Numbered from the stretch's first letter, positions 13,201 through 45,798 are shown. The stretch is 45,798 nt of DNA from Thermoplasmata archaeon (GCA_038851035.1 JAWCLH010000022.1:1-45798); one strand, 5' to 3'. The notes: generated by a model from the sequence alone, not told the origin. Numbers and translations are program-made.

Positions 13201-16200
13201 ACGCCGCCTGGTTCAACCGGGGCGTAGCGCTGAAGATGATGAAGAACTACACCGACGCCCTTGCATCGTTCGATAAGGCCATAGAGATTCGGCGCGACCA
13301 CGAGCCCGCATGGTTCGAGAAGGGCGCCACATTGGTCCTCATGGGACGTCTTCAGGATGCGATCAAATGCTACGACCGGGCGCTGGAGATAAGCCCCAGG
13401 TCCTTCAGGGCCTGGCTGAGCAAGGGAGAGGCATTGATGGGCGTCGGGGACCTCGGCGGTGCCGTGGGCTGCTTCGATAGAGCAATCGAGCTCGACGCCG
13501 GCCAGTTTGGCGTTTGGATGCTCAAGGGCGATGCACTTGTGGCGCTGAAGCAGACCGAACCCGCCCTGACGTGTTACGAGAGGGCGATCGCACTCAACGG
13601 CTCGAGCGAGGAGGCCTGGCTTAAGAGATCTGGCGTGCTCTTCCAGGCCGGTCGCCTCGACAAGGCGTTCGAGAGCTACATGAGGGCGATAGACATCAAC
13701 CCCAAAAACGCCCAGACCTGGACCACCGTCGGCTCCGTTCTCGTGAAGATGGGCAAGCCCGACAAGGCCATAGAGTGCTACGACAAGGCCTTGTCCATAG
13801 ACCCCAAGCTCTCCCCCGCTTGGCTGAACAAGGGGGCGGCCCTGAATCTGCTCGGCAGGCACGAGGAGGCTCTGCCCGCCTTCGCGCGCGCTACCGAGCT
13901 CGAGCCGAAGAGCGAGACCGCCTGGAACGAGCTGGGCCTTACCAACATGAGGCTCTCGAGGTTCAAGGACGCGGTCAGGTGCTTCGAAAAAGCGCTGGGT
14001 ATAAAGAGCGACTTCGCCGAGGCGTGGTTCAACAAGGGGCGGGCCGAGGAGGCGCTCGGGAGGCACGAGGAGGCCCTGGCCTCATTCGATAGAGCAACCG
14101 GTGTCAAGGAAGACTACGACGAGGCTTGGTTCGAGAGGGGCAGGTGCCTTGTCCAGCTGAAAAGGCTCGAGGACGCCGTGGCGAGCTTCCAGAGGGCGAC
14201 CAGGGTCAACCCCCAGCACCACCTCGCTTGGAGCGAAATGGGCTCGGCCCTGATGTCACTCGGGAGAATGGGAGAGGCTCTGAACGCCTTCGACACCGCA
14301 ATAAGAGTCAAGAAAGACCTGCCCGAGCCATGGATGAGAAAGGGCCTCACACTACTTTCGATGGGGCGCAACGAGGAGGCCGTTTCGTCTTTCGACCAGG
14401 CCATCGCGCTGAAGAGCGACAACCCCGACGCGTGGAACGGGAGGGGTCTCGCCCTCGCGCGCCTGAAGCGCTATCCCGAGGCGCTCGTGGCCTATGGGAG
14501 GGCGATAGAGCTCCGGCCCGGCGACGCCGAGGTCTGGAACAACATGGGCGAGGCGCTCAAGGAGCTCGGGAAGACCGCCGAGGCGCTCGCTTGCTTTGAG
14601 AAGGCGATAGAGCTCAGGGGCGAGTTCGAGAAGGCCTGGCTGAACAGGGGCGCCTCCCTCGCCCTTCTGGGCAGGGACGAGGAGGCGGCGGGGGCCTTCG
14701 AGAAGGCGATCGCCCTGAACGCCAGAAGCGAGCTTGCCTGGACTGGGAGGGGCGCCGCCCTGCACAGGCTCGGGAGGCATCAGGACGCCCTCACGTGCTT
14801 TGACAGGGCGCTGGAGCTGAAGCCCGACCACTTGGAGGCGCTAAACGGCAAAGCCTCGGCGCTGGCGGCGCTCGGCAGGTTCGAAGAGGCGGGCGCGTGC
14901 TACGATAGGATGCTCGCGCTCAAGCCCAGTGTCGAGACCTTCAACAGACGCGGCCTGATGCTCTACAACCTGAAGCAGTACACCGAGGCGATCAAGTTCT
15001 ACACCAAAGCCCTCGACATCACGACCAGCCACCCGGAGACCTGGCTCAACATGGGTAACGCGCTGAAGAGAATCGAGAAGCTGGCGGAGGCGGTGCAGTG
15101 CTACGACAGGGCGATCGAGTTCAGGACCGACTACGCCGAGGCGTGGTTCGAGAAGGGCGACACGCTCGAGTCGATGGAGAAGCCCGAGGAGGCTCTGAAG
15201 TGCTACAACAGGGCCATCGAGATTAACCCGGACAACGCGGAGGCGTGGTACAGAAAGGGCCTGGTTCTAGATAACCTCGAGCGGTTCGAGGACGCGGTTG
15301 CGGCCCTCGACAAGGCGATCGAGAAGAGAAAGGATTACGCGGATGCTTGGCAGAGGAAGGGGCTGGTGCTGCGCAAGCTCGGGAGGTTCGACGAGGCCGA
15401 CGTGTGCCTCAACAAGGCAATTGAGCTCAACCCAGAGATGGGCGATGTGTGGTCCGAGAGGGGCTTCACGCTCTTCAAGCTCGGAAGGGTCGAAGAGGCC
15501 CTCCAGTGCTTCGAGAAAGTGGTCCAGATGAACCCTAGGGACGCCGATGGGTGGAGCAACCGCGGCCTGATACTGTACCAGCTCGGGCGCTTCGAGGAAG
15601 CTGCAAAGTCCCACGAGAAGGCGGTCCAGCTGAGACCGGACTTCGTGGTTGCGTATAATAACTGGGGCAAGGCCCTGTATAGTCTGGGAAGACTTGAGGA
15701 GGCGTTAGAAAAGTTCAACAGAGCCATCGAGCTCAACCCCGACTTCTTAGGAGCGTGGCAGAACAAGGAGGTGGCGCTGCTCGAGCTGGGCCGCTTCGAG
15801 GAGGCCCTGCCGGTTTTCGAAAAAGAGCTCGAGCTCAACCCCGACGACCCCCAGACGCACTTCAACAAGGGAGACGTGCTGAAGCAGCTGAGGAGGCTTC
15901 CGGAAGCGCTCAAGGCGTATGACGAGGCCATAAAGCTGGACCCGGGCTTCTGGGAAGCGTGGGCCCAGAAGGGCTACGTGCTCTATATCATGAACAACAT
16001 CCAGGGAGCCATCCAGGCCTATGACAAGGTGATCGAGCTTAACCCACAGAACGAGGAGGCCTGGAACAACAAGGGGTCCGCCCTCTACGCCCTCAAGAAA
16101 TACGAGGAGGCGGCGAAGTGCTACGACAGGGCACTTGAGCTCAAGCCCGACTTCGCCAGCGCCTGGAACAACAAGGCCTCTGCCCTCTACTCCCTGAAGA

Positions 16201-17120
16201 GGTACGAGGAGGCCGTAAAGTGCGCCGAGAGGGCGCTCGAGCACGACCCCGCTTTCCAGGACGCCTGGAACAACAAGGGTACGGCCCTAGCGTCCCTTAA
16301 GAGGTACGAGGAGGCGATTCGGAGCTATGACGAGGCTCTGAAGATAAATGATGAGAACGAGATAATCTGGATAAACAAGGGTAACGCCCTGAGGGAGCTG
16401 AAGAGATTCAAGGACGCGATCGCCTGCTACGACAGAGCGCTGGAGGTCAACCCGAACTCGACTAGGGCTCACAGCCAGAAGGGCAGTGCGCTGGGTGCTC
16501 TCGGACAGAACAAGCAGGCATTGGAGGAGTTCGACAGGGCTTTGAAAATCGACCCGAGCGACCACCAGACCTGGAACAACAAGGGCTTTGTCCTCAGCTC
16601 GCTCGGCAGGGTCCAGGAGGCCCTCGAGTGCTACGACAAGGCCATCAAGAACAAGGAGGACTACGAGGACGCCTGGAACAACAAGGGCAACGCTCTCTAT
16701 ACCCTCGGCAAGGCTGCGGAGGCGCTCGGGTGCTACGATAGGGCGATCGAGATAAAGCCGGACTACCCAGAGGCCTGGAACAGCAAAGGGACCGCCCTGA
16801 AGAAGCTCGGCAGGGACGAAGAGGCGATAAGGTGCTACGACCGCGCGATTGAGATCAAGCCCGAGTACGAGGCCGCCTGGAACAATAAAGGCACGGTCCT
16901 CCTTGGTCTCGAGAGGGCCGAGGAGGCCCTGAGGTGCTTCGAGGAGGTGATTCGCCTCAACCCTGATAACGACGAGGCCTGGACGAACAAGGGCAACGCC
17001 CTGAGGGCGCTGGGCAGGGTCGATGAGGCGCTGAAGAGCTTCGAGACGGCCCTGAAAATCAACGCCGACAATATAGAGGCAAGGAATGGCAAGAGCCTGA
17101 TAGAGAAGATGAAGAAGTGA
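10245..17120 (+). CDS. Giant zinc-ribbon TPR protein (2291 aa)
   Basis: The 2291-residue protein has a small N-terminal zinc ribbon (MAVCPKCGTYVRAG then CQKCGTKIGG; Cys 4, 7, 18 and 21). A Gly/Arg/Pro linker (~25-65) and a ~110-residue helical region follow (ELTEDQFASITNQLNTML). An uninterrupted array of about 60 34-residue TPRs runs from ~residue 182 to the end, with consensus AWNNKGNALYxLGRxEEAI then CYDKAIEIKPDYE. There is no signal peptide or transmembrane segment, so it is probably cytosolic. The array could form a very long superhelix that scaffolds many partners. The zinc ribbon may bind nucleic acid, protein or a ribosome-associated target; this is inference. The start at 10245 follows a purine-rich ribosome site. 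The downstream gene at 17145 is a colinear paralogue 24 nt away, likely in the same operon. Confidence 0.93.
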   Translation: MAVCPKCGTYVRAGLDTCQKCGTKIGGRGKAGGLDSGGLIGDSVITRRRPVAPSGLIGVGPTTYGDQVSFVGGADALQQVKNINVRELTEDQFASITNQLNTMLTQMNIPTTLDKDTKLKLTKHDRAMVDLIGQKLHEAKAHYGKYVGNPEVYLRMGNALYLTRRGREQASAAGEALPYEPKEYTYEQALFYYDGAVALRPDYEEAWNNKGNLLDSMGKFEEAIQCFDKAIEIRPYGEEAWNNKGNALDELGRYEEAIACYDKVIELKPDYEEAWNNKGFALGCLGRYEEAIACYDRAIEINFEYEVAWNNKGYALGCLKRIDEAIECYDKAIEIKPDYAEAWNNKGNALYTLGKVEEAIKCFDRALEINPRYEKAWYNKGSALGALGRAEEAIRCYDKAIEAAPDYEKAWNNKGNALYNLGRMEEALKCYDEAIRLSPNFEQAWNNKGNALYTLGKVEEAIKCYDKAIELSPTYEKAWFNKGNAVHNLGRVDEAIACYDKVIELKPNFYKAWNNKGYALSSQGRHAEALRCFDQTIRINPSFEQAWNNKGNALYNLGKLAESITCFDRAIELKPDYDEAWNNKGMALHDLGRYEESIQCFNKALEVRATFDSAWFNKGSSLMQLGRSEEAIKCFDKVIELDPKHENAWYSKGNALRKLGKHEASLRCYDRVLELNAGHENAWFGKGMALLDLNRAEKALECFSRVIELSPASEAAWFSKGLALAKLGRLKQAEKCYDKVIELKPEHDQAWFEKGRILDTLGKTEEAIAAYDKALSFNKKLGEAWKQKGDALQALGRTREAMACYDEALAVSGEDPELWNSRGLAADSAGELAEAVRCFDRAIQKNVAYEPAWFNKGLTLFKLTKYEEAIKSFERAIEIKPDNDRAWNKKGEALAELGRLEEAVAAFDKAIELRGDSDTAWYNKGLAYERLGRYEDAVRAFDRAIAIKTTHDLAWNSKGETLVKMGRLEEAVICFDKAIEISHGFDAAWFNRGVALKMMKNYTDALASFDKAIEIRRDHEPAWFEKGATLVLMGRLQDAIKCYDRALEISPRSFRAWLSKGEALMGVGDLGGAVGCFDRAIELDAGQFGVWMLKGDALVALKQTEPALTCYERAIALNGSSEEAWLKRSGVLFQAGRLDKAFESYMRAIDINPKNAQTWTTVGSVLVKMGKPDKAIECYDKALSIDPKLSPAWLNKGAALNLLGRHEEALPAFARATELEPKSETAWNELGLTNMRLSRFKDAVRCFEKALGIKSDFAEAWFNKGRAEEALGRHEEALASFDRATGVKEDYDEAWFERGRCLVQLKRLEDAVASFQRATRVNPQHHLAWSEMGSALMSLGRMGEALNAFDTAIRVKKDLPEPWMRKGLTLLSMGRNEEAVSSFDQAIALKSDNPDAWNGRGLALARLKRYPEALVAYGRAIELRPGDAEVWNNMGEALKELGKTAEALACFEKAIELRGEFEKAWLNRGASLALLGRDEEAAGAFEKAIALNARSELAWTGRGAALHRLGRHQDALTCFDRALELKPDHLEALNGKASALAALGRFEEAGACYDRMLALKPSVETFNRRGLMLYNLKQYTEAIKFYTKALDITTSHPETWLNMGNALKRIEKLAEAVQCYDRAIEFRTDYAEAWFEKGDTLESMEKPEEALKCYNRAIEINPDNAEAWYRKGLVLDNLERFEDAVAALDKAIEKRKDYADAWQRKGLVLRKLGRFDEADVCLNKAIELNPEMGDVWSERGFTLFKLGRVEEALQCFEKVVQMNPRDADGWSNRGLILYQLGRFEEAAKSHEKAVQLRPDFVVAYNNWGKALYSLGRLEEALEKFNRAIELNPDFLGAWQNKEVALLELGRFEEALPVFEKELELNPDDPQTHFNKGDVLKQLRRLPEALKAYDEAIKLDPGFWEAWAQKGYVLYIMNNIQGAIQAYDKVIELNPQNEEAWNNKGSALYALKKYEEAAKCYDRALELKPDFASAWNNKASALYSLKRYEEAVKCAERALEHDPAFQDAWNNKGTALASLKRYEEAIRSYDEALKINDENEIIWINKGNALRELKRFKDAIACYDRALEVNPNSTRAHSQKGSALGALGQNKQALEEFDRALKIDPSDHQTWNNKGFVLSSLGRVQEALECYDKAIKNKEDYEDAWNNKGNALYTLGKAAEALGCYDRAIEIKPDYPEAWNSKGTALKKLGRDEEAIRCYDRAIEIKPEYEAAWNNKGTVLLGLERAEEALRCFEEVIRLNPDNDEAWTNKGNALRALGRVDEALKSFETALKINADNIEARNGKSLIEKMKK
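10790..17080 (+). repeat. In-gene tandem array of ~102-bp TPR-coding units
   Basis: Around 60 tandem units of about 102 bp encode the TPR repeats. Short DNA blocks such as TGGAACAACAAGGGCAACGC recur many times, for example near 11270, 11575, 11885 and 16675. Units differ at synonymous positions, so most are old; the near-identical blocks are potential recombination and assembly-collapse sites. Confidence 0.8.
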
Positions 17121-17144: not shown

Positions 17145-20100
17145 TTGCTTTCCCAGAAGGTGCTCAGGGCCATCGGCCTCGAGCTGGAGGGCGAGGACGC
17201 TATTTTTCGAGAGAAGCTCGACCCCATAGATAGAATAGTCGACGACGCCGTCTCCCTCTCGAACTCGAGGGGGGGAGTGATTCTCATCGGCGTCCGGCGC
17301 TCGGCCTCGGGCAGGGGCGAGGTCGTGGGTGTGGACTCGGCCCCGGGTCCAAAAGGTGAGGAGGCCCGGAAGTACGACATCTCGCGCCTGAGCACTCTTG
17401 GAGAGCACGTCAGGCCCCGCATCCATCCCCGGGTCCGGGCCGAGTCGGACGAGTCGGGAAGGTGGATATATGTCGTCGAGGTGGACGAGGGCATGGAGAA
17501 GCCCTACTGCAACCGGAGCGGCATCTACCTCCGGTTAGAGGGGGGGCAGGAGGTTCCCATGTTCCCCGAAGAGCTCCACAGGCTCTTCATCGGCGACGCC
17601 CTTGAGGTTCACCCCGGTCTGGACGCGGACTGGGTGCGCAGGGGCGATGGGCTCTTCGCCAGCGGAGACGCTCCGGGGGCACTGAGGTGCTACGACAGCG
17701 CCACGCGCCTCAATCCCCGGAGCGCCGACGCGTGGACAAAAAAGGGCGTGGCACTCTCCGCCCTCGGGAGGCCGGAGGCGGCGCTGGTCTGCTACGACCG
17801 CGCGCTCGAGATCGCTCCCGACGGCGCGGCAGCGCTGGTCGGGAGGGCGCGGGTGCTGCGCTCAATGGGCAGAATTCAGGAGGCGCTGGGGAGCGTCGAT
17901 AGGGCGCTCTCAATCAACCCCTCGAGCGAGGAGGCTTGGGTGGAGAGGGGCGAGGTCCTGAGGGGCGGGGGGAGGCTGGAGGAGGCGCTCGAGGCCTACG
18001 ACAGGGCGCTCCGGGCAAAGGACACTCTCGCCACGGCCTGGAAGGGGAAGGGAGCGGCTCTCCAGCAGATGGGCAGGCACGCCGAGGCGGCAGTGGCCCT
18101 CGATAAGGCGCTGGGCGCGGCTCCATCCGACCCCGATGGCTGGGTCCTCAAGGGCAGGAGCATGGAGGCCCTGGGCTTCGCCGACAAGGCGCTGGAGTGC
18201 TTCAACCGCGCCATCCAGCTGAAAGAGAGCCATGAGGAGGCCTGGCTCTGCAGGGGGAGGGCATACGAGGCGCTGGCCAAGTTCGATCAGGCGATTCTCT
18301 CTTACCAGAAAGCGCTCGAGCTCAACCCTGGGAACGAATCCACCTGGACCGCAATCGGCGGGATGCTTCTGAAAATCGGGAAGCTCAAGGAGGCGGTTCA
18401 GTGCTTCGAGAGGGCCGCAGAGCTTAACCCCTCGTCGGACTCCGCCCACATCGGGGCGGGGAAGGCTCTGGAGATGCTGGGAAAGAGCGAGGAGGCGCTC
18501 GCCGCTCTCACGAGGGCGGTGGAGGCCCGACCCACAAATGAGAGGGCTTGGAACGAGAGGGGAGCTCTCCTGATGCGTATGGGTAGGTTCGAAGAGGCGG
18601 CGGAGAGCTTCGAAAAGGCCGCAGCGGTGAGGAAGGACTACCACGAGGCCTGGTACAACAGAGGGCGCGCCCTGCAGGCGCTCGGCAGAAGTGAGGAGGC
18701 CATCCGGTGCTACGACCGGGCGCTGGAGCTGAAGGAGGACGCCGAGGCCTGGAGCGCGAAAGGGCGGTTGCTGATGAGCCTAGGGAAGTACAGAGACTCC
18801 GTCGCCAGCCTCACACGGGCGGCGGACCTGGACTCGAGCAACAAGGAAACCTGGTTCGCGATGGGCGAGGCATACATGAAGCTCGAGGAGTACATCGAGG
18901 CCGTCAGGTGCTACGACAAGGTCATCGGCATAGAGCTCAGCAGTCCGGAGGCCTGGTTCAGGAAGGGCGAGGCCCTCCAGAGGCTCGAGAGGCTCGAGGA
19001 GGCGGTCAGGTGCTACGGGCGCGCGATTGAGCTTGACGCGAAGCACGCGGGAGCCTGGCTCAGCATGGGCTCGGCCTTGGAGGCACTGGGGAGGCTCAAA
19101 GAGGCAGTGGCGTGTCTCGACAAAGCGACCGAGCTCAGGCCGGACTACGCGGAGGCCTGGAGCCTCAAGGGCGGCCTGTTAAAGAAGATGGGGAGGCTCG
19201 AGGAGGCGGACGCGGCCTATGCAAGGGCCGCCTCCCTCGCCCCCGACCAGAGCAGCGTCTGGTCCCAGAGGGGACTGACGCTCTACAAAATGGGGAGGCC
19301 GGAGGAGGCCCTGGAGTGCTTCGACAAAGTTCTCGAGAGGAATCCGGGTGACTTCGAGGCATGGAGCAACAAGGGAATCATCCTCGGCGTGCTCGGAAGG
19401 TACGAGGAGGCCATGAGGGCGCACGAGCGCGCGATTCAGCTCAAGCCCGACTTCGAGCTTCTCTGGCTGAACAAGGGGAACGCATGCTATGAGCTCGGAC
19501 GCTCGGAGGAGGCGCTGAGGGCCTACGAGAGGGCCGTGGAGCTCAACCCCAACTACCTCCTCGCCTGGAGGCACATGGGCCTCCTGCTGTCGGAGCTCGG
19601 CCGCCACGCCGAGGCGCTCAAGTGCTACGACGCGGAGCTCAGGCTCGACCCAAACGACCCGATGCCCCGGTACAACAAGGCGATATCCCTGAGGGCACTT
19701 GGCCGGCCGGAGGACGCCCTCGTCGAGCTCGACCGCGCCCTCGCGCTAGATTCAAGCCTTGCGGACGCGTGGGCGGAGAAAGGGGCGATTCTCTACTCAC
19801 TCGGAAAAAGGGAGGAGGCGGTGGTATGCTACGACAGGGTCATCGGCCTGGACCCGAACAACGCCCAGGCCTGGAACAACAAGGGCTCGGCCCTCTACTC
19901 GATGAAGAGGTACGAGGAGGCCATCGCCTGCTACGACACCGCCATCAAACTCAAGCCCGACTTCGCGCACGCCTGGAACAACAGGGGCTCGGCGCTCTAC
20001 AACCTGAAGAGATACGACGAGGCGGTCCGAAGCTTCGAAGAGGCCCTGAGGATCAGCCCCACATTTGACGAAGCCTGGAACAACAAGGGCAACGCACTGG

Positions 20101-20924
20101 TCCAGCTGAAGAGATACGATGACGCAATAAGCGCCTACGACGAGGCGCTTCGCAACAACCCCAACTCCGAGGTCACCTGGAACAACAGGGGCAACGCCCT
20201 GCGCGAGCAGGGAAAGCTGAAGGAGGCGCTCCAGTGCTACGACAGGGCCATTCAGATAAAGCCAGACTACGACAGCGCTTGGACAAACAAAGGCAATGCT
20301 CTCGGGCAGCAGGGAGACTACAAAGGAGCGGTGAAGTGCTACGAGCGCGCTCTAGAGTCAAACCCCCGGTACGCCCTCGCCTGGAACAATAAGGGCTACG
20401 CGCTGGCACAGCTCGGTATGCTGAACGAAGCCTTGGAGTGCTACGACAGGGCGATTCAAAACCGGGCGGACTATGAAGAGGCCTGGAACAACAAGGGAAA
20501 CGCCCTCTACAGCCTCGGCAGGCTCGACGACGCCGTGAGGTGCTACGACCGAGCCATCGAGATAAGGCCTGCATACGCCGAGGCCTGGAACAACAAGGGC
20601 ACCGCACTTCGGAAGAAGGGACGCGAGGAGGAGGCCCTGCGCTGCTATGACAGGGCCATCGAGATTCAGCCCGACTACAAAGAGGCCTGGATGAACAGGG
20701 GCAACACCCTGTTCAACCAGAAGCGCTTCGACGAGGCGCTCAGGTGCTACGACAGGGTCCTCGAGATATCCCCGGAGAGCGACGAGGCCTGGTCCAACAG
20801 GGGCAACGCGCTCAGGCTCCTCGGGAGAGCGGAGGAGGCGAGAGATTGCTACGAGCGCGCCCTGAAAATCAACCCAGCGAACGCGGACGCGAAGAACGGG
20901 AAGCTCGCGCTGGAAAAGCAGTAG
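17145..20924 (+). CDS. Schlafen/AlbA_2-like domain fused to ~32 TPRs (1259 aa)
   Basis: The N-terminal ~150 residues resemble the Schlafen AlbA_2 (divergent AAA_4/SLFN-like) fold. The markers are EDAIFREKLD, then DDAVSLSNSRGGVILIGVRR (the family's N-x-x-GG-x-hhhGV core), a V-G-V strand (GEVVGVDSAPG), VRPRIHPRV, and the closing GIYLRLEGGQEVPMFPEELHRLF. The rest (~160-1259) is about 32 tandem TPRs of the same type as the upstream giant. There is no secretion signal. AlbA_2 domains occur in transcription regulators, RNases and defence proteins and are linked to nucleic-acid binding; TPR arrays bind protein. The start is TTG at 17145 behind GTGTGGCGGA; a GTG at 17160 is possible. The gap to the upstream gene is 24 nt, so the two are probably co-transcribed. 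Confidence 0.85.
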   Translation: MLSQKVLRAIGLELEGEDAIFREKLDPIDRIVDDAVSLSNSRGGVILIGVRRSASGRGEVVGVDSAPGPKGEEARKYDISRLSTLGEHVRPRIHPRVRAESDESGRWIYVVEVDEGMEKPYCNRSGIYLRLEGGQEVPMFPEELHRLFIGDALEVHPGLDADWVRRGDGLFASGDAPGALRCYDSATRLNPRSADAWTKKGVALSALGRPEAALVCYDRALEIAPDGAAALVGRARVLRSMGRIQEALGSVDRALSINPSSEEAWVERGEVLRGGGRLEEALEAYDRALRAKDTLATAWKGKGAALQQMGRHAEAAVALDKALGAAPSDPDGWVLKGRSMEALGFADKALECFNRAIQLKESHEEAWLCRGRAYEALAKFDQAILSYQKALELNPGNESTWTAIGGMLLKIGKLKEAVQCFERAAELNPSSDSAHIGAGKALEMLGKSEEALAALTRAVEARPTNERAWNERGALLMRMGRFEEAAESFEKAAAVRKDYHEAWYNRGRALQALGRSEEAIRCYDRALELKEDAEAWSAKGRLLMSLGKYRDSVASLTRAADLDSSNKETWFAMGEAYMKLEEYIEAVRCYDKVIGIELSSPEAWFRKGEALQRLERLEEAVRCYGRAIELDAKHAGAWLSMGSALEALGRLKEAVACLDKATELRPDYAEAWSLKGGLLKKMGRLEEADAAYARAASLAPDQSSVWSQRGLTLYKMGRPEEALECFDKVLERNPGDFEAWSNKGIILGVLGRYEEAMRAHERAIQLKPDFELLWLNKGNACYELGRSEEALRAYERAVELNPNYLLAWRHMGLLLSELGRHAEALKCYDAELRLDPNDPMPRYNKAISLRALGRPEDALVELDRALALDSSLADAWAEKGAILYSLGKREEAVVCYDRVIGLDPNNAQAWNNKGSALYSMKRYEEAIACYDTAIKLKPDFAHAWNNRGSALYNLKRYDEAVRSFEEALRISPTFDEAWNNKGNALVQLKRYDDAISAYDEALRNNPNSEVTWNNRGNALREQGKLKEALQCYDRAIQIKPDYDSAWTNKGNALGQQGDYKGAVKCYERALESNPRYALAWNNKGYALAQLGMLNEALECYDRAIQNRADYEEAWNNKGNALYSLGRLDDAVRCYDRAIEIRPAYAEAWNNKGTALRKKGREEEALRCYDRAIEIQPDYKEAWMNRGNTLFNQKRFDEALRCYDRVLEISPESDEAWSNRGNALRLLGRAEEARDCYERALKINPANADAKNGKLALEKQ
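17640..20890 (+). repeat. Second in-gene tandem array of TPR-coding units
   Basis: About 32 units of ~102 bp. The last ~20 units correspond one-to-one, in order, with the last ~20 units of the upstream array (compare 15340-17080 with 19150-20890). This points to duplication of a whole array rather than independent growth. Confidence 0.65.
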
Positions 20925-36943: not shown

Positions 36944-39900
36944 ATGAGGGACATAAAACTGAATATAATGGCTGTCACGATAGGGCTTCTTTTGCCGCTA
37001 TTGCCAATGACTGCCCCGCATAGCTCTGCCGATAACATACAAATCGTCGTAAACAAATTCAGCAACGGCCTCTCCGAGCTGAACGTCGACTTCACCTACG
37101 GCGGAACGAACACCAAAAACAGCCTCTCTCTCCAGACCGGCCTAATTCTGAACAGCGTCGAGCTCAAGGTCTCAACGGCGGCGATGCCCGGGGCGGAGAA
37201 GAGCTACCCGACCAACGTCGTCGTTGACTTTGGAGGCGACGATAAGCCCGAGTGGAGCTTCTCGGGGAAGGGCTATGGCCCTTTGGGCCGCCAGACCGTT
37301 TTCATAAATAACCTGCCCTACATGAACGCCAGCATACCGTTCGGCGGTGGCTACAACGACAGTGTCGCGATTCGCCTGCCCAAGAGCGCGCATGTGACGA
37401 AGGCGACGATGAACCTCAGTGCGGGCCAGAGAATCGGGGACCCGGGCAAGGTGCTGGTGATATGGGCGACCTACACCGGCTACGGCTGGGACTCCGACCT
37501 CCCCAAGAAGCTCAGGGCCTTTACCAGCGACTTCTCGACCGTGGACAGCTACGACGGCCGCTCCGGCACCCCCGACTGGGCCACGGTCTCAAAGTACGGC
37601 AATATCCTGGTCTGGAGCGATTGGTACTTCTGGTACGGCTTCCAGAACGGGGCCGAGCTCGGGGACCTGATGGCAAATTATGTAGACGCGGGTGGCTCAC
37701 TCGTTCTGGCGACCTACGCGATGTATCAGTATGGTAATTTCTATCTGAGCGGCCGCTTCCTGTCTGAGAACTACTATGCCATCCAGCCGACCCAGTCCAT
37801 CGTGTATCATAACCCCTCCATAGGCACCATTGACCAGCCCGGCCACCCGGTGATGGCCAATGTCAGCAACATCTACTTCCCGAGCGGCTACACCTACGGC
37901 ATCTACCAGACCGGCGTCGCCGAGGGAGCCAAGGCGATATCGCACTGGAACAGCGGAATGATACTGGCCGCGGAGAAGAACATCGGCGGGACTGACAGGG
38001 TCGACATCAACCTGATGCCCGTGTCGTCGGACACATCCTACTACTACTCCTGCTACGCCGGAGACGGCGACGACCTCTTTAGGAACGCGCTCATATACGG
38101 CGGCAGGAAGCCCTTCACCGGGGCCGTGAATATCCTGAACGACTCCACGGAGGAGTTCAACAGGACCGCTTTCTCCGGCAACTACACATTCCCCGACTTC
38201 TCCGACATGCTGAACTCCTATCTGGCGAGCGCGAGTGTGAGCTACAGGGACGCCTATGGCAACGAGTTCGTGGACATCCCGATATACGTGAGCGGCCCCG
38301 CCGCCAGCCGCGTCAGGTTCGACAGTCTTGAGATTCTCTACGACTACACCAAGGACATTAAAGAGAATCCGTACGAGGGCGACCTGACCTCCTCGCTCAA
38401 CGACATGATGTCCACCGTGCAGGGCCCGAATAATATAACAATCCCGATATACATCAGCAGCTCCAGCAGCGGCCGGGTCAGGCTCCACTCGCTCAGAATC
38501 ACAGCAACGCCTCCCATCCACCCCCCGACAATCAAGCGCTTCTGGCCCGATGCAGAGACAGTGGTCGAGGAGAACACGGAGGTGGAGTTCGGGGTCGATG
38601 TGGTTGACATCTACGGAAACCCGGTGACCATCAAGTGGTTCCACAACGCTGATGAGCTCGTCGGACAGACCAGGGAGAGGGTGAAGATAATGTTCGACTA
38701 TGATTCCGCCGGCCTCCACACTGTCACGGTCCGCATAGAGAATGGCCTCCGGCCGACGGAGCAGACATGGAACGTGACCGTGCTCGACGTGAATCGCGAG
38801 CCGGTGATAGACACATTCCTCCCGGTGAGCAACCCAACGGTCAGGGAGAACGAGACGGTTGAGTTCAGCGTGGGCGCGAGCGATCCTGACGGCGACCCCC
38901 TCTCGTACCGGTGGGCGCTGGACGGGAAGGTGCTGATGAAGGAGACCAGGAGTGCCTTCAACTACACCCCCGATTTCTTCAGCGCCGGGACCCACGCGGT
39001 CACGGTCACCGCCAGCGACCCCGGGGGTCTCACGGCGGCGAAGAAGTGGGACGTGACAGTCGAGAACGTGAACGTCAGGCCGGTGATATCCTCCTACTCT
39101 CCCAAGACGAACCCTAGGATAAAGGAAACCCAGAACTGGACTTTCTCGGCCAAGGGTTTCGACCAGGACGAGGGGACCCTCCTCACGATGACCTGGTACC
39201 TTGACGGGAACCAGGTCTACATAGGAGAATCATATACCTATAGGACCGATTTTAAGTCCGCAGGCCTGCGGAGTGTGAAGGTCGTGGTCTCCGATGGCGA
39301 GCTATCCGACTCCCACGAGTGGCTCGTCACGGTGGACAACTGGAATAGGCCACCGGAGCCTTACATCGACTCTCCGAGGGAGAAGCTGGAGTTCATGGAG
39401 GGCGACGTAATACAGTTCAGCGCGGCCTCGACCACCGACCCGGACGAGGAGGAGCTGAGCTTCGTCTGGAGGGAAGGGAGCACCGTTCTCTCAAACGATG
39501 TGGAGTTCCAGAGGGCGTTGCCCCGCGGCCTTCATACGGTGACGCTCGAGGTCAGGGACCCGTACGGCGCGACCAACTCGACCTCCGTCAGAATTCGGGT
39601 CAGGTACATCGAGCTTGCGGTCCTTCTAGGAGTTTCCAGACTCGACCCCCGCGCCGGGGACGCAATCGACGTTGTTGTCACATTCACAAATATAGGCGAC
39701 GCCGAAGCCACAGATGTCGGCCTGACCGTCCTTGTGGACGGCCGGACCCTCGGTTCCGACACAATCAAGTCCCTCGCGCCGGGTGGGGTGGAGGTGAGGG
39801 TCTTCCAGTGGAAGGCGACGAGGGGAGACCACACCCTCTCGGCGAAGGTCGGGGGGAGCGAGTGGAGCAAGAGTGTGACGGTCGCGTCCGCCCCGCCTCC

Positions 39901-40003
39901 GGCGGCGGGCCCCGGAGTGGAGACCTACATGTGGCCAAGCCTTTTGATAGTGATTGCGGTCCTGCTGTTCGGATGGGGGGCGATGGTGCTGCGGAAGAGG
40001 TGA
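36944..40003 (+). CDS. Large anchored surface protein 1: GATase-like insert, PKD/Ig-like repeats, CARDB-like domain
   Basis: The 1019-residue protein is predicted to be extracellular. Residues 1-29 are a signal peptide. An N-terminal family domain (~30-160, DFTYGGTNTKNSLSLQTGLI, VVDFGGDDKPEWSFSGKGYG) is followed by an insert at ~165-388 with a flavodoxin or ThuA/glutamine-amidotransferase-like pattern (KVLVIWATYTGY, LMANYVDAGGSLVLATYA, DLFRNALIYGG), but no catalytic Cys triad is evident. A conserved beta region (~390-522) precedes four PKD/Ig-like domains (~524-890, e.g. RENETVEFSVGASDPDGDPL). A CARDB-like domain follows (~891-975, FTNIGDAEATDVGLTVLVDG), then a transmembrane helix (~997-1014) and basic RKR tail. 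Several N-glycosylation sequons are present. A role in the cell envelope or adhesion is inference. Confidence 0.85.
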   Translation: MRDIKLNIMAVTIGLLLPLLPMTAPHSSADNIQIVVNKFSNGLSELNVDFTYGGTNTKNSLSLQTGLILNSVELKVSTAAMPGAEKSYPTNVVVDFGGDDKPEWSFSGKGYGPLGRQTVFINNLPYMNASIPFGGGYNDSVAIRLPKSAHVTKATMNLSAGQRIGDPGKVLVIWATYTGYGWDSDLPKKLRAFTSDFSTVDSYDGRSGTPDWATVSKYGNILVWSDWYFWYGFQNGAELGDLMANYVDAGGSLVLATYAMYQYGNFYLSGRFLSENYYAIQPTQSIVYHNPSIGTIDQPGHPVMANVSNIYFPSGYTYGIYQTGVAEGAKAISHWNSGMILAAEKNIGGTDRVDINLMPVSSDTSYYYSCYAGDGDDLFRNALIYGGRKPFTGAVNILNDSTEEFNRTAFSGNYTFPDFSDMLNSYLASASVSYRDAYGNEFVDIPIYVSGPAASRVRFDSLEILYDYTKDIKENPYEGDLTSSLNDMMSTVQGPNNITIPIYISSSSSGRVRLHSLRITATPPIHPPTIKRFWPDAETVVEENTEVEFGVDVVDIYGNPVTIKWFHNADELVGQTRERVKIMFDYDSAGLHTVTVRIENGLRPTEQTWNVTVLDVNREPVIDTFLPVSNPTVRENETVEFSVGASDPDGDPLSYRWALDGKVLMKETRSAFNYTPDFFSAGTHAVTVTASDPGGLTAAKKWDVTVENVNVRPVISSYSPKTNPRIKETQNWTFSAKGFDQDEGTLLTMTWYLDGNQVYIGESYTYRTDFKSAGLRSVKVVVSDGELSDSHEWLVTVDNWNRPPEPYIDSPREKLEFMEGDVIQFSAASTTDPDEEELSFVWREGSTVLSNDVEFQRALPRGLHTVTLEVRDPYGATNSTSVRIRVRYIELAVLLGVSRLDPRAGDAIDVVVTFTNIGDAEATDVGLTVLVDGRTLGSDTIKSLAPGGVEVRVFQWKATRGDHTLSAKVGGSEWSKSVTVASAPPPAAGPGVETYMWPSLLIVIAVLLFGWGAMVLRKR

Positions 40004-40142
40004 GCAACCCTCAACCGGCGGATTGAGGCCGAGGGAGCTAACTAGTAGGGCTGGGGGTGGGTCCACCGCCCGGCTCCACGCTGGGAATTCCAGCGGTCCT
40101 CCTCCCCCGACCGTTGCGGCCGTGCTTTGAGGAAGGTGGGGT

Positions 40143-40862
40143 ATGAGCGCTACAGAGCTTCTCTACATGGCGGGCGTTGAGGGGAACTACATAAAGGAGT
40201 TCGAGGCCGTTGTCACGGAGAGGGGGCCCGGATGGGTCGCCCTCGACCGGACCGCTTTCTACCCCGAGGGCGGGGGCCAGCCGTCGGACACGGGCGAGCT
40301 GGTCTTCGAGGGCGGGCGGGCGCGCGTCACGGACGTCCAGAAGAGGGACACCGTCCGGCACTTCATCGACGGCGAGCTGCCGCAGCATGTGAAGTCCGTG
40401 AGGGGCATTCTCGATTGGGAGAGGCGATATGCCCACATGCGAATGCACACCGCCCAGCACGTTCTTTCCGGAGTGGTCTTTGACAGGTTCGGGGCCAGGA
40501 CAGTCGGGAACCAAATATACTCGGACCGCTCGCGCATCGACTTCTTCCCCCTCGCCCTCGCCCCGGAGGACCTCGAGAGTCTGGAGGAGGCTTGCAACAG
40601 CATCTTTGCCAGAAACGTGCCGCTGGAAATATACGAAGAGGACAGGGCCGAGCTCGAGAAAAGGGTTAATGCGGGGAGGGTCAGTCTCGACCTACTTCCG
40701 AAGTCTGCTAGGAGGATCCGTATAGTTAAGATAGGCGAGTTCGACGTCTGCCCCTGCGCGGGGACCCACGTTCGAACCACGGCCGAAATCGGCAGGATGA
40801 AGATAATCAAGAAAGAGAGCAAGGGCAGGGACAGGGAGAGGTTGGTCTACACCCTTGTTTAA
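40143..40862 (+). CDS. alaX: Alanyl-tRNA editing protein AlaX (AlaX-M type)
   Basis: The 239-residue protein matches the free-standing alanyl-tRNA editing domain plus the N-terminal beta domain typical of AlaX-M. It hydrolyses mischarged Ser-tRNA(Ala) (and possibly Gly). The zinc site is visible as HTAQH (HxxxH) and CAGTH (CxxxH); TAFYPEGGGQPSDTGEL is the conserved glycine-rich loop. Other segments: KRDTVRHFIDGELP, LDWERRYAHMRMHTAQHVLSG and IGRMKIIKKESKGRDRERLVY. The start is ATG 40143 after GGAAGGTGGGG. It lies alone between two paralogous surface-protein genes and has no functional link to them that I can see. Confidence 0.94.
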   Translation: MSATELLYMAGVEGNYIKEFEAVVTERGPGWVALDRTAFYPEGGGQPSDTGELVFEGGRARVTDVQKRDTVRHFIDGELPQHVKSVRGILDWERRYAHMRMHTAQHVLSGVVFDRFGARTVGNQIYSDRSRIDFFPLALAPEDLESLEEACNSIFARNVPLEIYEEDRAELEKRVNAGRVSLDLLPKSARRIRIVKIGEFDVCPCAGTHVRTTAEIGRMKIIKKESKGRDRERLVYTLV

Positions 40863-40950
40863 GCAGTGGGCAGGGGGAACGCCTGCTGGGGGAGGGGATG
40901 AGCGGCGGCGAGTGCCCCGGGGCTTCATAGCGCGCTCCAGCAACGGAGGG

Positions 40951-40985
40951 TTATTAAATTTTTTTATAGTAGGAAAATTTAAAAT
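40951..40985 (+). promoter_or_regulatory. AT-rich promoter of the second surface protein
   Basis: TTATTAAATTTTTTTATAG and AAAATTTAAAAT lie ~40-70 nt before the preferred ATG 41023. Like the other two genes of this family, the start follows an exceptional AT-rich block. Confidence 0.5.
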
Positions 40986-41022
40986 AGGCAATAATATTAT
41001 GAGGCTTCAAATGGTGAACTAT

Positions 41023-43932
41023 ATGACCCGGCACGCAAGCATAATACTAGCTCTCGGACTAGTTGCCCCTTTGCTGGTGGTTTACGCGCCCCCGGCCTCG
41101 GCGGCGAATATAACGAAGACCATCGAGACCTTCGATGGAGTGAAATCCGAGATTAAGGCCGACTTCCAGTACGGCGGCACGGACAAGAGCAACGCCCTAT
41201 CCATCCAGACGGGTCTGATTATCCAGAACGCTTCCCTTAAGACAACCACGGCCGAGCTCTCCCCCGACAGGAGCGACTACCCGACGAATGTGAGCGTCGA
41301 CTTCGGCGGCGACCAGAAGCCGGAGTGGGCCTTCGTGGGCAAGGGCTACGGTAGCTGGGGCCTCCAAGACACTTTCCCTTCGGGAAGTAAAAACATTTCC
41401 CTTACGTGTGGCCTCAACGGCACCACATCGACCAGTGTCTACCTGCCCCAAAAGGCAGATGTAAAGAAAGCGAATATGACGATAAAGAGCGCACCTCTCG
41501 CGGAGCTGGTCGAGCTGACGGGCGGGACGAGCACCAACGTCTATCCCTTCGGCTCGGGGACTACGTGGAGGTTCCAGTGGCTCTACACAGCGGCGGAAAT
41601 CAAGGGCTCCGGAATCATCGACAAAGTCGGCTGGAAGGTCCAGTCAGGCTATGGAATAGGAGGCTCAGGAACCCTCACTGGCTTCAAGATGCTCTTCTGC
41701 AACACACCCATTACTGGTCTGACCACCACCTTTGCCAACAATTACGGCGGCAACACTCCCCAGAAGGTCATTGACACCGCGAGCTACGACATAAAAGAAT
41801 CCGGTGGCTGGCTCGAGATCGACCCGCCGGACGAGTTCTTCTATGACAACTCCAAAAACCTTCTGATTGAGATATCGTTTACTGGGAAGACGGGCACCAG
41901 CTTCGGCCTCGCCGCGGGGACCGTCTCTGACGGGACTGGCGCCCGGAGGGCCTGGTCCTCCAGCTCCGCAGACTCACCAACCGGCTCGGTTGATTCCAGC
42001 GCTTATAGATACGACGTTAGAATCTACATCAGCGGCAAGGCCTTCAACCTCTCCGTGGACATCTGCAACGACACAGTAATTGATTATCAGACCACCACGC
42101 CGCCCCTGAACGGGACGGAGGTGGTCTTCACGGAGGCCCTGAGGGACTTCATGACGACAGCCGAAGTCAATTTCACCGACCCCTACGGAAACGCCTTCGT
42201 GGCCTTTCCCATTATAATCAACATGCAGTGGGGCGGGAAGATAACTCTGCTCAACATGAGCATTGTCTACGAATCCACCGCCGAAATTCGGCTGAATCCA
42301 TACGATGGCGATTTAGCGACCTCCCTCAACGAGCTTATGTCCACGAAGCAAGGGCCTGAGAACCTGACGATACCGATATACATATCGAGCACGACCCCGG
42401 GCAGGGTCTGGCTGCACTCGCTGAAGATAACCGCGGTTCCGCCTATCCACGCGCCGACAATAAAGCGCTTCTGGCCGGACGAGGAGACGCAGGTCGAGGA
42501 GAACACCGAGCTCGAGTTCGGAATCGATGTTGAGGACATCTACGGGAATCCCGTGAGCATCCAGTGGTACTACAACGAGGAGCCGATGGAGGGCGAGACT
42601 GGGAGCAGAATCAAGCTTTTCTTTGACTACGACTCTGCGGGCTTGCACACCGTTAAGGTGAGGGTGGAGAACGGGCTCCGCGCAGCGGAGCAGCGGTGGA
42701 ACATCACGGTGGTGGATATCAACCGAGAGCCCGTGATAGAGAGTCATCTTCCTGTGACCAATCCCACGGTTAGGGAGAACGAGACCGTGGAGTTCAGCGT
42801 TGAGGCGAGCGACCCAGACGGGGACCCGCTGAGCTACCAGTGGTCGCTGGACAGGAAGGTGCAGATGAAGGAGAACGGGAGCAGGTACAGGTACACGCCC
42901 GACTTTTTCAGTGCGGGGACGCACACAGTGATGGTGACTGTGAGCGACCCAGGCGGGCTGACTGCGACGAAGAAGTGGGACGTGACTGTGGAGAATGTGA
43001 ATGTGGCGCCCGTGATAGTTGCGTATTCTCCCAAGACGAACCCGAGGATAAGGGAGACGCAGAGCTGGACTTTCTCTGCGACTGGGGCTGACCAAGACGA
43101 GGGCACGCTTCTGACGATGACGTGGTATTTGGACGGGGCTCAGGTGTACATAGGGGAGAGCTACACCTACAAGACGAATTTCAAATCTGCGGGCCAGCAC
43201 AAGGTGAAGGTTGTGGTGTCGGACGGGGAGCTGAGCGACTCGTACGAGTGGCTGGTGACTGTGGACAATTGGAATAGGGCTCCGGAGCCGGTGATAGACT
43301 CACCGAGGGAGAGGCTGGAGTACATAGAGGGGGAGCAGATACAGTTCAGTGCGGTATCGAGCAGCGACCCGGACGAGGAGGAGCTGACGTATGTTTGGAA
43401 GGAGGGGGATACCGTTCTCTCGAGCGAGGCGCAGTTCCAGACGGCGCTCCCGCGCGGCCTGCACACGATAGTGCTCGAGGTCACGGACGTGATGGGTGCG
43501 AAGAACAGCACGTCGGTGAGGGTGCGGGTGAGGTATGTCGAGATTGCGGTGATCATGGGTCTGTCGCGGATGGACATCCGCGCTGGGGACAGGGTGGAGG
43601 TCATAGTGACAGTGACGAACATCGGCGACGCGCCCGCGGCCGAGCTGAGTGTCGAGCTTCTTGTGGACGGTCGCAGTCTTGGGACTGAGAGCATCCCTGC
43701 GCTGGGTGCTGGGGAGACGGTGAGGCAGTTCTTCCAATGGAAGGCGGTGAAGGGAGAGCACACCTTCACGGCCAAGATTGGCGAGAGCAGCTGGGAGAAG
43801 GTAGCGGTTGTGGAGCCGGCGCCGCCGGTGGAGGCGGGTGCGGGCGTCGAAGCATACCTCTGGCCCCTGCTCATCATCGTTCTAATAGTTCTTCTCATCG
43901 CTTGGGGAGCGGTGGTCATGCGTAAAAAGTAG
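41023..43932 (+). CDS. Large anchored surface protein 2: alternative beta-sandwich insert, PKD/Ig-like repeats, CARDB-like domain
   Basis: The protein has 969 residues from ATG 41023 (MTRHASIILALGLVAPLLVV signal peptide; GGTGA upstream). In-frame ATGs at 40999 and 41011 are alternatives. The N-terminal family domain is shared with the flanking paralogues (DFQYGGTDKSNALSIQTGLI, DFGGDQKPEWAFVGKGYG). At the point where paralogues 1 and 3 carry a GATase-like domain it has a different, probably beta-sandwich insert (YPFGSGTTWRFQWLYTAAEI, DNSKNLLIEISFTGKTG). The rest matches paralogue 1: beta region, four PKD/Ig-like domains, CARDB-like domain (VTNIGDAPAAELSVELLVDG), transmembrane helix near the end and basic RKK tail. 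Synonymous codon choice changes noticeably from about 42840 on, towards G- and T-ending codons. Confidence 0.85.
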   Translation: MTRHASIILALGLVAPLLVVYAPPASAANITKTIETFDGVKSEIKADFQYGGTDKSNALSIQTGLIIQNASLKTTTAELSPDRSDYPTNVSVDFGGDQKPEWAFVGKGYGSWGLQDTFPSGSKNISLTCGLNGTTSTSVYLPQKADVKKANMTIKSAPLAELVELTGGTSTNVYPFGSGTTWRFQWLYTAAEIKGSGIIDKVGWKVQSGYGIGGSGTLTGFKMLFCNTPITGLTTTFANNYGGNTPQKVIDTASYDIKESGGWLEIDPPDEFFYDNSKNLLIEISFTGKTGTSFGLAAGTVSDGTGARRAWSSSSADSPTGSVDSSAYRYDVRIYISGKAFNLSVDICNDTVIDYQTTTPPLNGTEVVFTEALRDFMTTAEVNFTDPYGNAFVAFPIIINMQWGGKITLLNMSIVYESTAEIRLNPYDGDLATSLNELMSTKQGPENLTIPIYISSTTPGRVWLHSLKITAVPPIHAPTIKRFWPDEETQVEENTELEFGIDVEDIYGNPVSIQWYYNEEPMEGETGSRIKLFFDYDSAGLHTVKVRVENGLRAAEQRWNITVVDINREPVIESHLPVTNPTVRENETVEFSVEASDPDGDPLSYQWSLDRKVQMKENGSRYRYTPDFFSAGTHTVMVTVSDPGGLTATKKWDVTVENVNVAPVIVAYSPKTNPRIRETQSWTFSATGADQDEGTLLTMTWYLDGAQVYIGESYTYKTNFKSAGQHKVKVVVSDGELSDSYEWLVTVDNWNRAPEPVIDSPRERLEYIEGEQIQFSAVSSSDPDEEELTYVWKEGDTVLSSEAQFQTALPRGLHTIVLEVTDVMGAKNSTSVRVRVRYVEIAVIMGLSRMDIRAGDRVEVIVTVTNIGDAPAAELSVELLVDGRSLGTESIPALGAGETVRQFFQWKAVKGEHTFTAKIGESSWEKVAVVEPAPPVEAGAGVEAYLWPLLIIVLIVLLIAWGAVVMRKK
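42445..42574 (+). repeat. Near-identical block shared with 45669-45798
   Basis: This 130-bp segment matches 45669-45798 at 129 of 130 positions by eye (one difference, ACAATAAAG versus ACGATAAAG). The flanking sequence of the two genes differs heavily. The second copy reaches the window edge, so the true length is unknown. Confidence 0.85.
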
Positions 43933-44056
43933 CGGGTGTGGTTGAAAGGAAAGAGCGGGGTTACGGACCGCTCGGCAAACGCAGCCACCGCTCGGGAGAG
44001 GATTCTGTCGAGACTGGAGCCCTCCGGGGGCCCGGGATTTTGAGACCCGCACTACA

Positions 44057-44068
44057 AATAATATATAG
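44057..44068 (+). promoter_or_regulatory. TATA element of the third surface protein
   Basis: AATAATATATAG lies ~50 nt before ATG 44112. The leader of ~24 nt contains GGGGGTG as ribosome site. Confidence 0.6.
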
Positions 44069-44111
44069 CCATAGAGAGGGTAGGGGAAGTTGCTAGTACG
44101 GGGGGTGCTTT

Positions 44112-45798
44112 ATGGTGCTCAGAGCTTTTGCGGCGCTGCTTGCGGCGTGTCTCCTGCTACCGCTCTGTCTCCCGGGCGCGCCGGGGGCCCCGGCGGGGAA
44201 CATCGAAATAGTCATCGAGACTTTCGGCGACGGGCAGAAGGAGCTCAACGTCGACTTCCCCTATGGCGGGACGAACACGAAGAACAGCCTCTCCGTCCAG
44301 ATCGGCCTCATCCTGAGCAACATCTCGCTAAAGGTTTCCTCAGCGTCAATGCCCGGCTCGGGAAAGGACTACCCAAGCAATGTGGTGATCGACTTCTGGG
44401 GCGACGGAAAGCCCGAGTGGGCCTTCACTGGAAAGGGCTATGGACCGCTCGGCAGACAGACCGTTTTCATAAATGATCTCCCCATAATGAACGCCAGCGC
44501 CTTCAAGACGGGCGCATTCAACAACACAACGATGATTCGCCTGCCAAAGAGCGCCAGGGTGGTCTCGGCGCAGATGAACATCACCAACCCGCGCGGCGGC
44601 GGGGGTGGGATGGTAGCGGTCGAGGCCGCGCTGAGCAGCAGGGCGAGGGACACCCCGGGCAACGACCCGGTCTACTCCATCCAGTCCCTCTGCGAGGAGA
44701 ACGGCTGGGTCGCCAACATCGTTTCCGGCACGGACATCGACACATTGGAGGAGCTCTCACAGTACTCTGTGGTGATCACGGGCGACGCGGGGTACAACGA
44801 CGACGACCACGCCACGTTCGAGAAAGCGCTGGACACATGGGTCCAGAACGGCGGGGGATTCATCGGGATGGGCTGGATAGTCTACTCGACCAATGCGGGC
44901 ACGGGAATAGCGAATGTTCTGCCGGTGATCTGTCCCGGCTACAGCTACGACTCATCGGGCACCATCACGATAACCAACAAGAACCACGAGCTGACCCAGA
45001 ACGTCAACGACTTCTCGGTCCAGCAGTACTGCGAGTACCCGTCCAGCGGAATCAAGAGCGGAGCGATCGCAGTGGCTAAGTCCCCCAGCGGGCGCGACTG
45101 CATCGCGTGCTGGGACTACGGCGGCGGGAAGAGCGTCTACATCGGCCCGATCGCGTTCGGATGCTTCCAGTCCTACCCGAGCGCCAAGAACTACTACAGC
45201 GACACAAACTTCAAGAACCTCCTGATGAACGCAATCGTCTACACGGCGGGCCAGAGAGCGGTCAACTGCACCGTGGACATTCTCGATGACGGAATCATCG
45301 ACTACAGGAACGAGGAGCTGAACGGCTCCGAGAGGCTCCCCGACTTCACCCAGATGCTCAACAACTATCTCGCAACGGCTCCCGTCAGCCACAGGGACGC
45401 CTATGGGAACGAGTTCGTGGACGTTCCAATCAATGTGACGATGTACGGCAAATACGGGGGCCGCGTCGGCTTCACGAACCTGAGCATCGTCTACGAGTAC
45501 ACGACCAACATCCGTGAGAACCCCTTCGAGGGCGACCTCCTCTCCTCGCTCAATGACCTGATGTCGACGGTTCAGGGCCCGAACAACCTAACAATTCCGA
45601 TATACATCAGCAGCTCCAGCGCCGGCAGGGTCAGGCTCCACTCGCTTAGAATCACTGCCATCCCCCCAATCCACGCGCCGACGATAAAGCGCTTCTGGCC
45701 GGACGAGGAGACGCAGGTCGAGGAGAACACCGAGCTCGAGTTCGGAATCGATGTTGAGGACATCTACGGGAATCCCGTGAGCATCCAGTGGTACTACA
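44112..45798 (+). CDS. Large anchored surface protein 3: ThuA/GATase-like insert (partial, runs off right edge)
   Basis: The frame opens at ATG 44112 and continues to the window end (562 codons visible); I translated it directly. Residues 1-~28 are a signal peptide (MVLRAFAALLAACLLLPL). The family N-domain follows (DFPYGGTNTKNSLSVQIGLI, DFWGDGKPEWAFTGKGYGPL), close to paralogue 1. The insert (~165-380) has a ThuA/GATase-like pattern (NGWVANIVSG, YSVVITGDAGYNDDDHATF, WVQNGGGFIGMGWIVYST, DYGGGKSVYIGPIAFG, NFKNLLMNAIVYTAG) with different sequence from the paralogue 1 insert. The beta region then resembles paralogue 1 up to ~45660 and paralogue 2 almost base for base from 45669. It probably continues into PKD/Ig-like repeats and a C-terminal anchor outside the window. 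Confidence 0.82.
   Translation, partial: MVLRAFAALLAACLLLPLCLPGAPGAPAGNIEIVIETFGDGQKELNVDFPYGGTNTKNSLSVQIGLILSNISLKVSSASMPGSGKDYPSNVVIDFWGDGKPEWAFTGKGYGPLGRQTVFINDLPIMNASAFKTGAFNNTTMIRLPKSARVVSAQMNITNPRGGGGGMVAVEAALSSRARDTPGNDPVYSIQSLCEENGWVANIVSGTDIDTLEELSQYSVVITGDAGYNDDDHATFEKALDTWVQNGGGFIGMGWIVYSTNAGTGIANVLPVICPGYSYDSSGTITITNKNHELTQNVNDFSVQQYCEYPSSGIKSGAIAVAKSPSGRDCIACWDYGGGKSVYIGPIAFGCFQSYPSAKNYYSDTNFKNLLMNAIVYTAGQRAVNCTVDILDDGIIDYRNEELNGSERLPDFTQMLNNYLATAPVSHRDAYGNEFVDVPINVTMYGKYGGRVGFTNLSIVYEYTTNIRENPFEGDLLSSLNDLMSTVQGPNNLTIPIYISSSSAGRVRLHSLRITAIPPIHAPTIKRFWPDEETQVEENTELEFGIDVEDIYGNPVSIQWYY
45669..45798 (+). repeat. Near-identical block shared with 42445-42574
   Basis: Second copy of the 130-bp block, 129 of 130 identical, cut by the window edge. 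It begins abruptly inside the coding sequence near the first PKD/Ig-like domain. Confidence 0.85.

Follow-up and report, generated by a model that had tools for sequence, protein, structure and literature searches.

We analyzed three paralogous genes at the end of a DNA stretch of 45,798 bases (contig JAWCLH010000022.1 of Thermoplasmata archaeon, GCA_038851035.1). This stretch, hereafter the window, is one entire contig of a draft archaeal assembly (2.69 Mb, 50 contigs, 99% complete), referred to below as the present genome. The genes, designated P1, P2 and P3, lie in the same orientation, and P3 runs into the contig end (Table 1). Each encodes a predicted surface protein in which an N-terminal host domain is interrupted by an insert, here called the guest, and the results below argue that each guest is nested in a single loop of that host.

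The initial annotation had assigned the three paralogues a common signal peptide and N-domain, and this was borne out by protein alignment: the N-domains are 45–64% identical and the domains following the insert 46–63% identical. The PKD/Ig-like, CARDB-like and anchor parts that it had assigned to the complete copies were likewise found in both P1 and P2, which share 70% identity in the C-terminal stalk and exceed the curated Pfam cut-offs for PF00801 (72.4 and 76.2 bits, respectively) and PF07705 (37.2 and 39.8 bits). The signal peptide and the C-terminal transmembrane helix were read from the sequence alone, and would mediate export and membrane anchoring of the proteins.

When the three proteins were aligned and the insert borders marked, similarity ended at these borders and returned beyond them, at both the protein and the DNA level. 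The inserts of P1 and P3 aligned with that of P2 no better than background, in DNA or protein. The three inserts occupy one homologous point, and a search of related genomes found the same two flanks around many other guests across the phylum, far beyond chance. Chimeric contigs or mis-binned genes in a metagenome assembly could mimic mosaic genes of this kind, and the draft does consist of 50 contigs, with the window stopping within P3 at a repeat. However, the same architecture occurs in many independent genomes and contigs, the junctions are in frame, and the guests resemble their own flanks in GC content and third-position GC content; we regard such an artefact as highly improbable.

Table 1. 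Features of P1, P2 and P3 in the window, with positions counted from its first base
Feature	Coordinates	Strand	Size or basis
P1 (copy 1), surface protein, GATase/ThuA-like guest	36944..40003	+	1019 aa
P1 signal peptide, about aa 1-29	36944..37030	+	Hydrophobic stretch, then A-rich cleavage region; low pLDDT (predicted local distance difference test) at 1-28
P1 host beta repeat 1, intact host unit	37034..37309	+	hhalign to spliced repeat 2; model strands 46-50, 54-64, 68-79, 92-96, 104-106
P1 host repeat 2, first half, three strands ahead of guest	37310..37429	+	Profile and model
P1 guest, class-I-GATase/ThuA-like fold, no Cys at nucleophile position	37430..38104	+	225 aa; PDB fold matches, homology to guest 3
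P1 host repeat 2, second half, and two helix-strand-strand units	38105..38533	+	Profile and model
P1 PKD/Ig-like stalk	38534..39600	+	Pfam PKD, PKD_4, Big_9 over cut-off
P1 CARDB	39644..39850	+	PF07705, 37.2 bits (cut-off 22.7)
P1 transmembrane anchor and short RKR tail	39923..40003	+	Read from sequence
P2 (copy 2), surface protein, beta-sandwich guest	40999..43932	+	977 aa, counted from ATG
P2 signal peptide, host repeat 1, repeat 2 first half	40999..41496	+	Profile and model
P2 guest, all-beta, no Pfam or convincing PDB match	41497..42033	+	179 aa; scans and model
P2 host repeat 2, second half, and helix-strand-strand units	42034..42462	+	Profile and model
P2 PKD/Ig stalk, CARDB (43576-43779), transmembrane anchor, RKK tail	42463..43932	+	Pfam; anchor read from sequence
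P3 (copy 3), cut by contig end	44112..45797	+	Incomplete
P3 signal peptide, host repeat 1, repeat 2 first half	44112..44594	+	Profile
P3 guest, ThuA-like	44595..45251	+	219 aa; PF06283 E 2e-6, LBP_M E 1.9e-5
P3 host repeat 2, second half, and helix-strand-strand units	45252..45686	+	Profile
Final 115 bases of contig, stalk start, identical to P2 DNA from 42460	45684..45798	+	DNA comparison

Host domain and its loop

We compared host repeat 1 with a spliced repeat 2, in which the stretches before and after the insert were joined. The two matched strongly (hhalign probability 99.1, E = 1.8e-18), whereas column-shuffled profiles gave E-values of 0.05 or worse. In the AlphaFold2 models of P1 and P2, the strand order of repeats 1 and 2 is alike, with the guest placed after strand 3: in P1, repeat 1 has strands at residues 46–50, 54–64 and 68–79, a loop, and a strand at 92–96, and repeat 2 has strands at 127–131, 136–146 and 150–159, the guest, and a strand at 391–397. 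The profile comparison and the predicted structures together show, for the subfamily of P1, P2 and P3, an intact repeat 1 and a repeat 2 in which the loop that joins strands 3 and 4 holds the guest. Once joined, the stretches on either side of the guest amount to a copy of repeat 1; the guest is therefore nested within a host loop and does not form a separate link of the chain.

Members with an empty loop of 2 aa were clear in contig C13 of the present genome (L021:5190-8339) and in contig C7 of G001, the nearest relative compared, which belongs to the same family but a different genus; a possible third occurs in G002. The present genome also contains a second subfamily of about 13 genes that have a single host repeat and carry guests at the corresponding loop. 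Three of these one-repeat hosts (L158, L153 and L157) have an unclassified guest of ~180 aa that is seemingly common to four genes.

We considered ordinary domain shuffling, in which a guest is merely strung between two independent domains and no special host exists. This explanation would fit the frequent occurrence of modular beta proteins containing PKD repeats and the wide distribution of FG-GAP propellers, which are among the guests; it is nevertheless unlikely, because the joined flanks of the guest recapitulate repeat 1, some members have only 2 aa in the loop, and one-repeat hosts use this loop too. The border is also constant in about 100 members, although this constancy is partly inherent in the models used, and independent support comes from comparing the two repeats, from members with an empty loop and from the one-repeat hosts.

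The host N-domain had no sequence match in Pfam or NCBIfam and no convincing one in PDB, and no description of it was found in the open-access literature, which does not prove that none exists. The proteins share the PKD/Ig stalk, CARDB and C-terminal transmembrane anchor with PKD/CARDB-stalked archaeal surface proteins, and differ from them in this unmatched N-terminal host and in its acceptance of guests.

Identity and range of the guests

The initial annotation had proposed three different inserts. This held for guest 2, which was unrelated to guests 1 and 3 in profile comparisons (E about 0.6), so that the three inserts are not homologous throughout. In contrast, guests 1 and 3 were homologous in a profile–profile comparison (hhalign probability 97, E = 5e-11), which rules out that these two are unrelated. 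They are divergent members of one ThuA/class-I-GATase-like fold, a relationship at which the labels of the initial annotation already hinted, and the locus accordingly carries two guest superfamilies, not three.

A fold search of PDB with the P1 model returned 2gk3 (E = 9.1e-7), 4e5v (1.1e-4) and 3rht (2.7e-4); the search used the entire 530-aa model, and the sizes and descriptions of the targets indicate the guest as the matched part. Guest 3 scored 28.6 bits against ThuA (PF06283), under the gathering threshold of 33.4, and a related guest from G001 scored 32.1. Guests 1 and 3 thus share the fold of ThuA/class-I GATase-like domains, but are under the Pfam cut-off or undetected by sequence, and are housed in a surface protein. 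Furthermore, the nucleophile-elbow Cys of class-I glutamine amidotransferases was absent in alignments of the guest-1 and guest-3 families (after VDAGGSLV / VQNGGGFI). Since this Cys is lacking, both guests would likely function in binding rather than as amidotransferases. For the P2 model, the fold search of PDB gave no convincing match, and sequence searches of solved structures with the host, guest 1 and guest 2 gave nothing convincing. Domains of the guest-2 and guest-3 types, the two types searched, were not found outside this scaffold in 41 genomes.

The N-domain profile detected 13 strong members in the present genome, and, at an E-value threshold of 1e-8, the domain was present in 84 members of a 293-genome sample from the phylum. 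Guest length in 90 complete members ranged from 2 to 1128 aa (median 379). In G079 (contig C128), a tandem array of four family members (L107) has three guests of about 310–320 aa and one of 769 aa. When 99 guests were scanned singly, the Pfam matches were FG-GAP_3 (49), FG-GAP (44), BNR_2 (8), NHL (3), kelch (2), ThuA (2) and others, and many guests were unmatched; DUF4082-like and CBM96-like matches were weak. About ten guest classes were distinguished, namely none, GATase/ThuA-like, beta-sandwiches, FG-GAP, BNR, NHL and kelch propellers, ConA-like and others, with further classes consisting of NHL after another domain, a separate propeller-like type, a tyrosine-rich type and others. The guests of one-repeat hosts were FG-GAP, BNR, ConA-like (GH43_C2, DUF1349) and unclassified.

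In relatives, the most frequent guests give strong matches to FG-GAP models and in this respect resemble integrin-type FG-GAP/VCBS beta-propellers (PMC3192720, PMC8023676). However, the FG-GAP propeller of the integrin alpha chain forms the head, whereas here a loop within a beta host holds the propeller.

Retention and recombination of the guests

The initial annotation had likened the locus to a cassette-exchange system for cell-surface diversification. Such an explanation would involve a dedicated exchange or antigenic-variation system in which guests are rapidly shuffled between conserved flanks, and the unrelated inserts between conserved flanks are consistent with it. We compared scaffolds between the present genome and G001. 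For nine scaffolds with a reciprocal best scaffold in G001, the guest class was the same in all nine and guest length nearly so; for these nine, the insert was thus largely fixed between the two genera. Moreover, the guest was more conserved than both flanking host parts in 7/9 measured pairs (P3/G1C39_1 and the eight reciprocal-best pairs that carry guests), as in 67% against 54/54%, 65% against 52/62% and, for insert 3, 74% against 44/48%; the exceptions were the P1 and C3b pairs. Such conservation of guests over flanks is the opposite of what a hypervariable module would show. On a scaffold tree of 50 members, 13 changes of guest type were counted, compared with a mean of 26 for shuffled labels and a possible minimum of 7, so guest type is mostly inherited and sometimes changed.

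Machinery for exchange was also sought. The reverse transcriptase model PF00078 had no match in the present genome, although it does match control genomes; this is evidence against a diversity-generating retroelement residing in the assembly. No recombination-site repeats beyond coding homology were present at the insert borders, and no recombinase was found near the locus; one integrase gene (PF00589) lies on another contig.

Guest and scaffold nevertheless conflict in their trees. The P3 scaffold is nearest to that of P1, and the P3 guest is nearest to that of G1C39_1 (74%), a G001 gene whose scaffold pairs with its own tandem neighbor G1C39_3110. In approximately unbiased (AU) tests of the scaffold, the grouping of P3 with G1C39_1 was rejected (P = 3e-5), also when only the N part (8e-4) or only the post part (6e-3) was used; in tests of the guests, the groupings of P1 with P3 (P = 4e-38) and of the two G1C39 genes with each other (P = 2e-5) were rejected. 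The tested groups were picked after the identities had been viewed and the P-values serve as guides, but the conflict is still strong. These trees indicate that guests and scaffolds of the array have undergone recombination.

The DNA identity of P2 and P3 climbs to 100% at the start of the stalk, where 42460-42574 equals 45684-45798, and the stalks of the G1C39 tandem pair are 85% identical, compared with 34% for their guests. Homologous recombination of tandem copies explains the tree conflict, given the identical 115 bases and G1C39 stalks far closer than the guests. The contig probably broke in assembly at this recently homogenized stalk region. Furthermore, guest types are arranged differently around sucC and alaX in the two genera: a sandwich-guest gene adjoins sucC in G001 and a GATase-guest gene does so in the present genome.

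Three family members in the present genome contain in-frame stops and no frameshift: L024:10628-14233 (C32, TAG), L147:1291-5166 (C10, TAG) and L025:4202-7816 (C3, two TAA). Amber readthrough was rejected, as TAA occurs among these stops as well as TAG, and a search for pyrrolysyl-tRNA synthetase gave nothing above the cut-off. Disrupted genes or sequence errors are likelier, and these members are possibly recent pseudogenes or gene-conversion donors.

The tree conflict of P3, the DNA shared by P2 and P3, the unlike guest order near sucC and alaX, and the potential of the stop-bearing members to act as silent donors all fit cassette exchange. On the other hand, the nine pairs hold their guest class between genera, guests are mostly better conserved than flanks, none of the machinery sought was found in those places, and the P2- and P3-type guests are confined to this scaffold, so no donor store was seen for them. 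What stood of the initial proposal, and on a far larger scale than it had described, is a conserved scaffold with exchangeable modules, seen in the roughly ten guest classes and the tree conflict; rapid cassette exchange for surface diversification is not supported, and we consider such a dedicated system quite unlikely.

Other features of the window were recorded. An AlaX-type gene (40143-40862) between P1 and P2, with HxxxH and CxxxH motifs read from the sequence and a homologue 63% identical in G001, is an ordinary gene outside the surface-protein family. The listed open reading frame of P2 begins at a TTG (40855) upstream of its ATG. A TATA-like AT-rich stretch was read upstream of each of P1, P2 and P3, which makes their separate expression plausible. 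In the gap between P2 and P3, 23 bases (43958-43980) read GYGPLGK and resemble GYGPLGRQ, which is conserved in the host repeat; an older copy may have left this remnant, or the likeness may be due to chance. Elsewhere, two adjacent giant proteins (10245-17120 and 17145-20924; 2291 and 1259 aa) consist mainly of TPR repeats (41 and 18 TPR_1 stretches), and 1453-3834 encodes a 793-aa protein with lamin-tail domains and a phospholipase-D-like domain.

Proposed explanation and its implications

We consider it probable that these genes encode surface proteins anchored in the membrane, that their host domain accepts guests throughout the phylum, that the guests are specialized and retained, and that gene conversion acts among tandem copies. 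One loop of the host takes two residues in some members and an entire unrelated domain in others, and the rest of the host, the stalk and the anchor remain similar. Because the ends of the loop would join in a hairpin, domains with nearby ends, such as propellers, sandwiches and GATase-like domains, could be accommodated with the host fold left intact. The guest would be displayed at the membrane-distal tip of the PKD/Ig stalk and might bind a ligand, such as glycans, polymers or partner cells, so that each genome would hold some 25 receptors or adhesins of differing specificity. Guests would be gained or replaced rarely and then be selected to stay. Tandem copies would swap scaffold DNA by homologous recombination, whereby stalks and hosts are homogenized and a guest is at times left in another scaffold. 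Because guests persist through long evolutionary spans, the family resembles a repertoire of surface receptors that was assembled slowly, and not a system of fast antigen switching.

Several points weigh against this explanation. The structural models were built on 8 and 5 sequences and have moderate pLDDT values (78 for P1 and 75 for P2). The deep branches of the scaffold tree, on which the counts of guest change depend, are weak, and any given change may have been a gain, a loss or a swap. Gene conversion of the flanks and true transfer of a guest yield the same tree conflict. Finally, we infer surface exposure, ligands and binding from the predicted proteins, and likewise the closeness of guest ends and hence the tolerance of the loop.

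The nearest described archaeal surface protein with conserved and variable parts that we found is the VARTIG module of Thermococcales (PMC8416519). These Ig-type proteins are secreted and have no known function; one part is conserved and another highly variable, and trees point to recombination. Both systems combine conserved and variable parts. However, VARTIG (arCOG07710) varies its C-terminal Ig domain, whereas here the C-terminal parts are alike and the nested guest varies; the N-terminal host takes unrelated entire domains in one loop, and these guests are stable from one genus to the other. What seems new is that FG-GAP/VCBS, BNR and NHL propellers, themselves known modules, are nested alike in one loop of an undescribed host. 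A more general proposition is that this host acts as a phylum-wide socket, accepting some ten unrelated kinds of domain in one loop, in ~25 proteins per genome here, with guests moving by tandem gene conversion; we put this forward tentatively.

Thermoplasmatales examined by microscopy have no S-layer and an unordered glycoprotein coat (PMC12448462). If the organism studied here had such a coat, surface proteins of this kind would be exposed. Domain insertion into permissive loops is already known; reuse of one loop by many unrelated folds across a phylum, if true, would constitute a natural insertion platform. The architecture would provide an annotation rule for a large class of uncharacterized archaeal surface proteins and a natural test set for loop tolerance of guests, and may provide a display scaffold. 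The proteins are, moreover, candidate receptors of uncultured planktonic and lake archaea.

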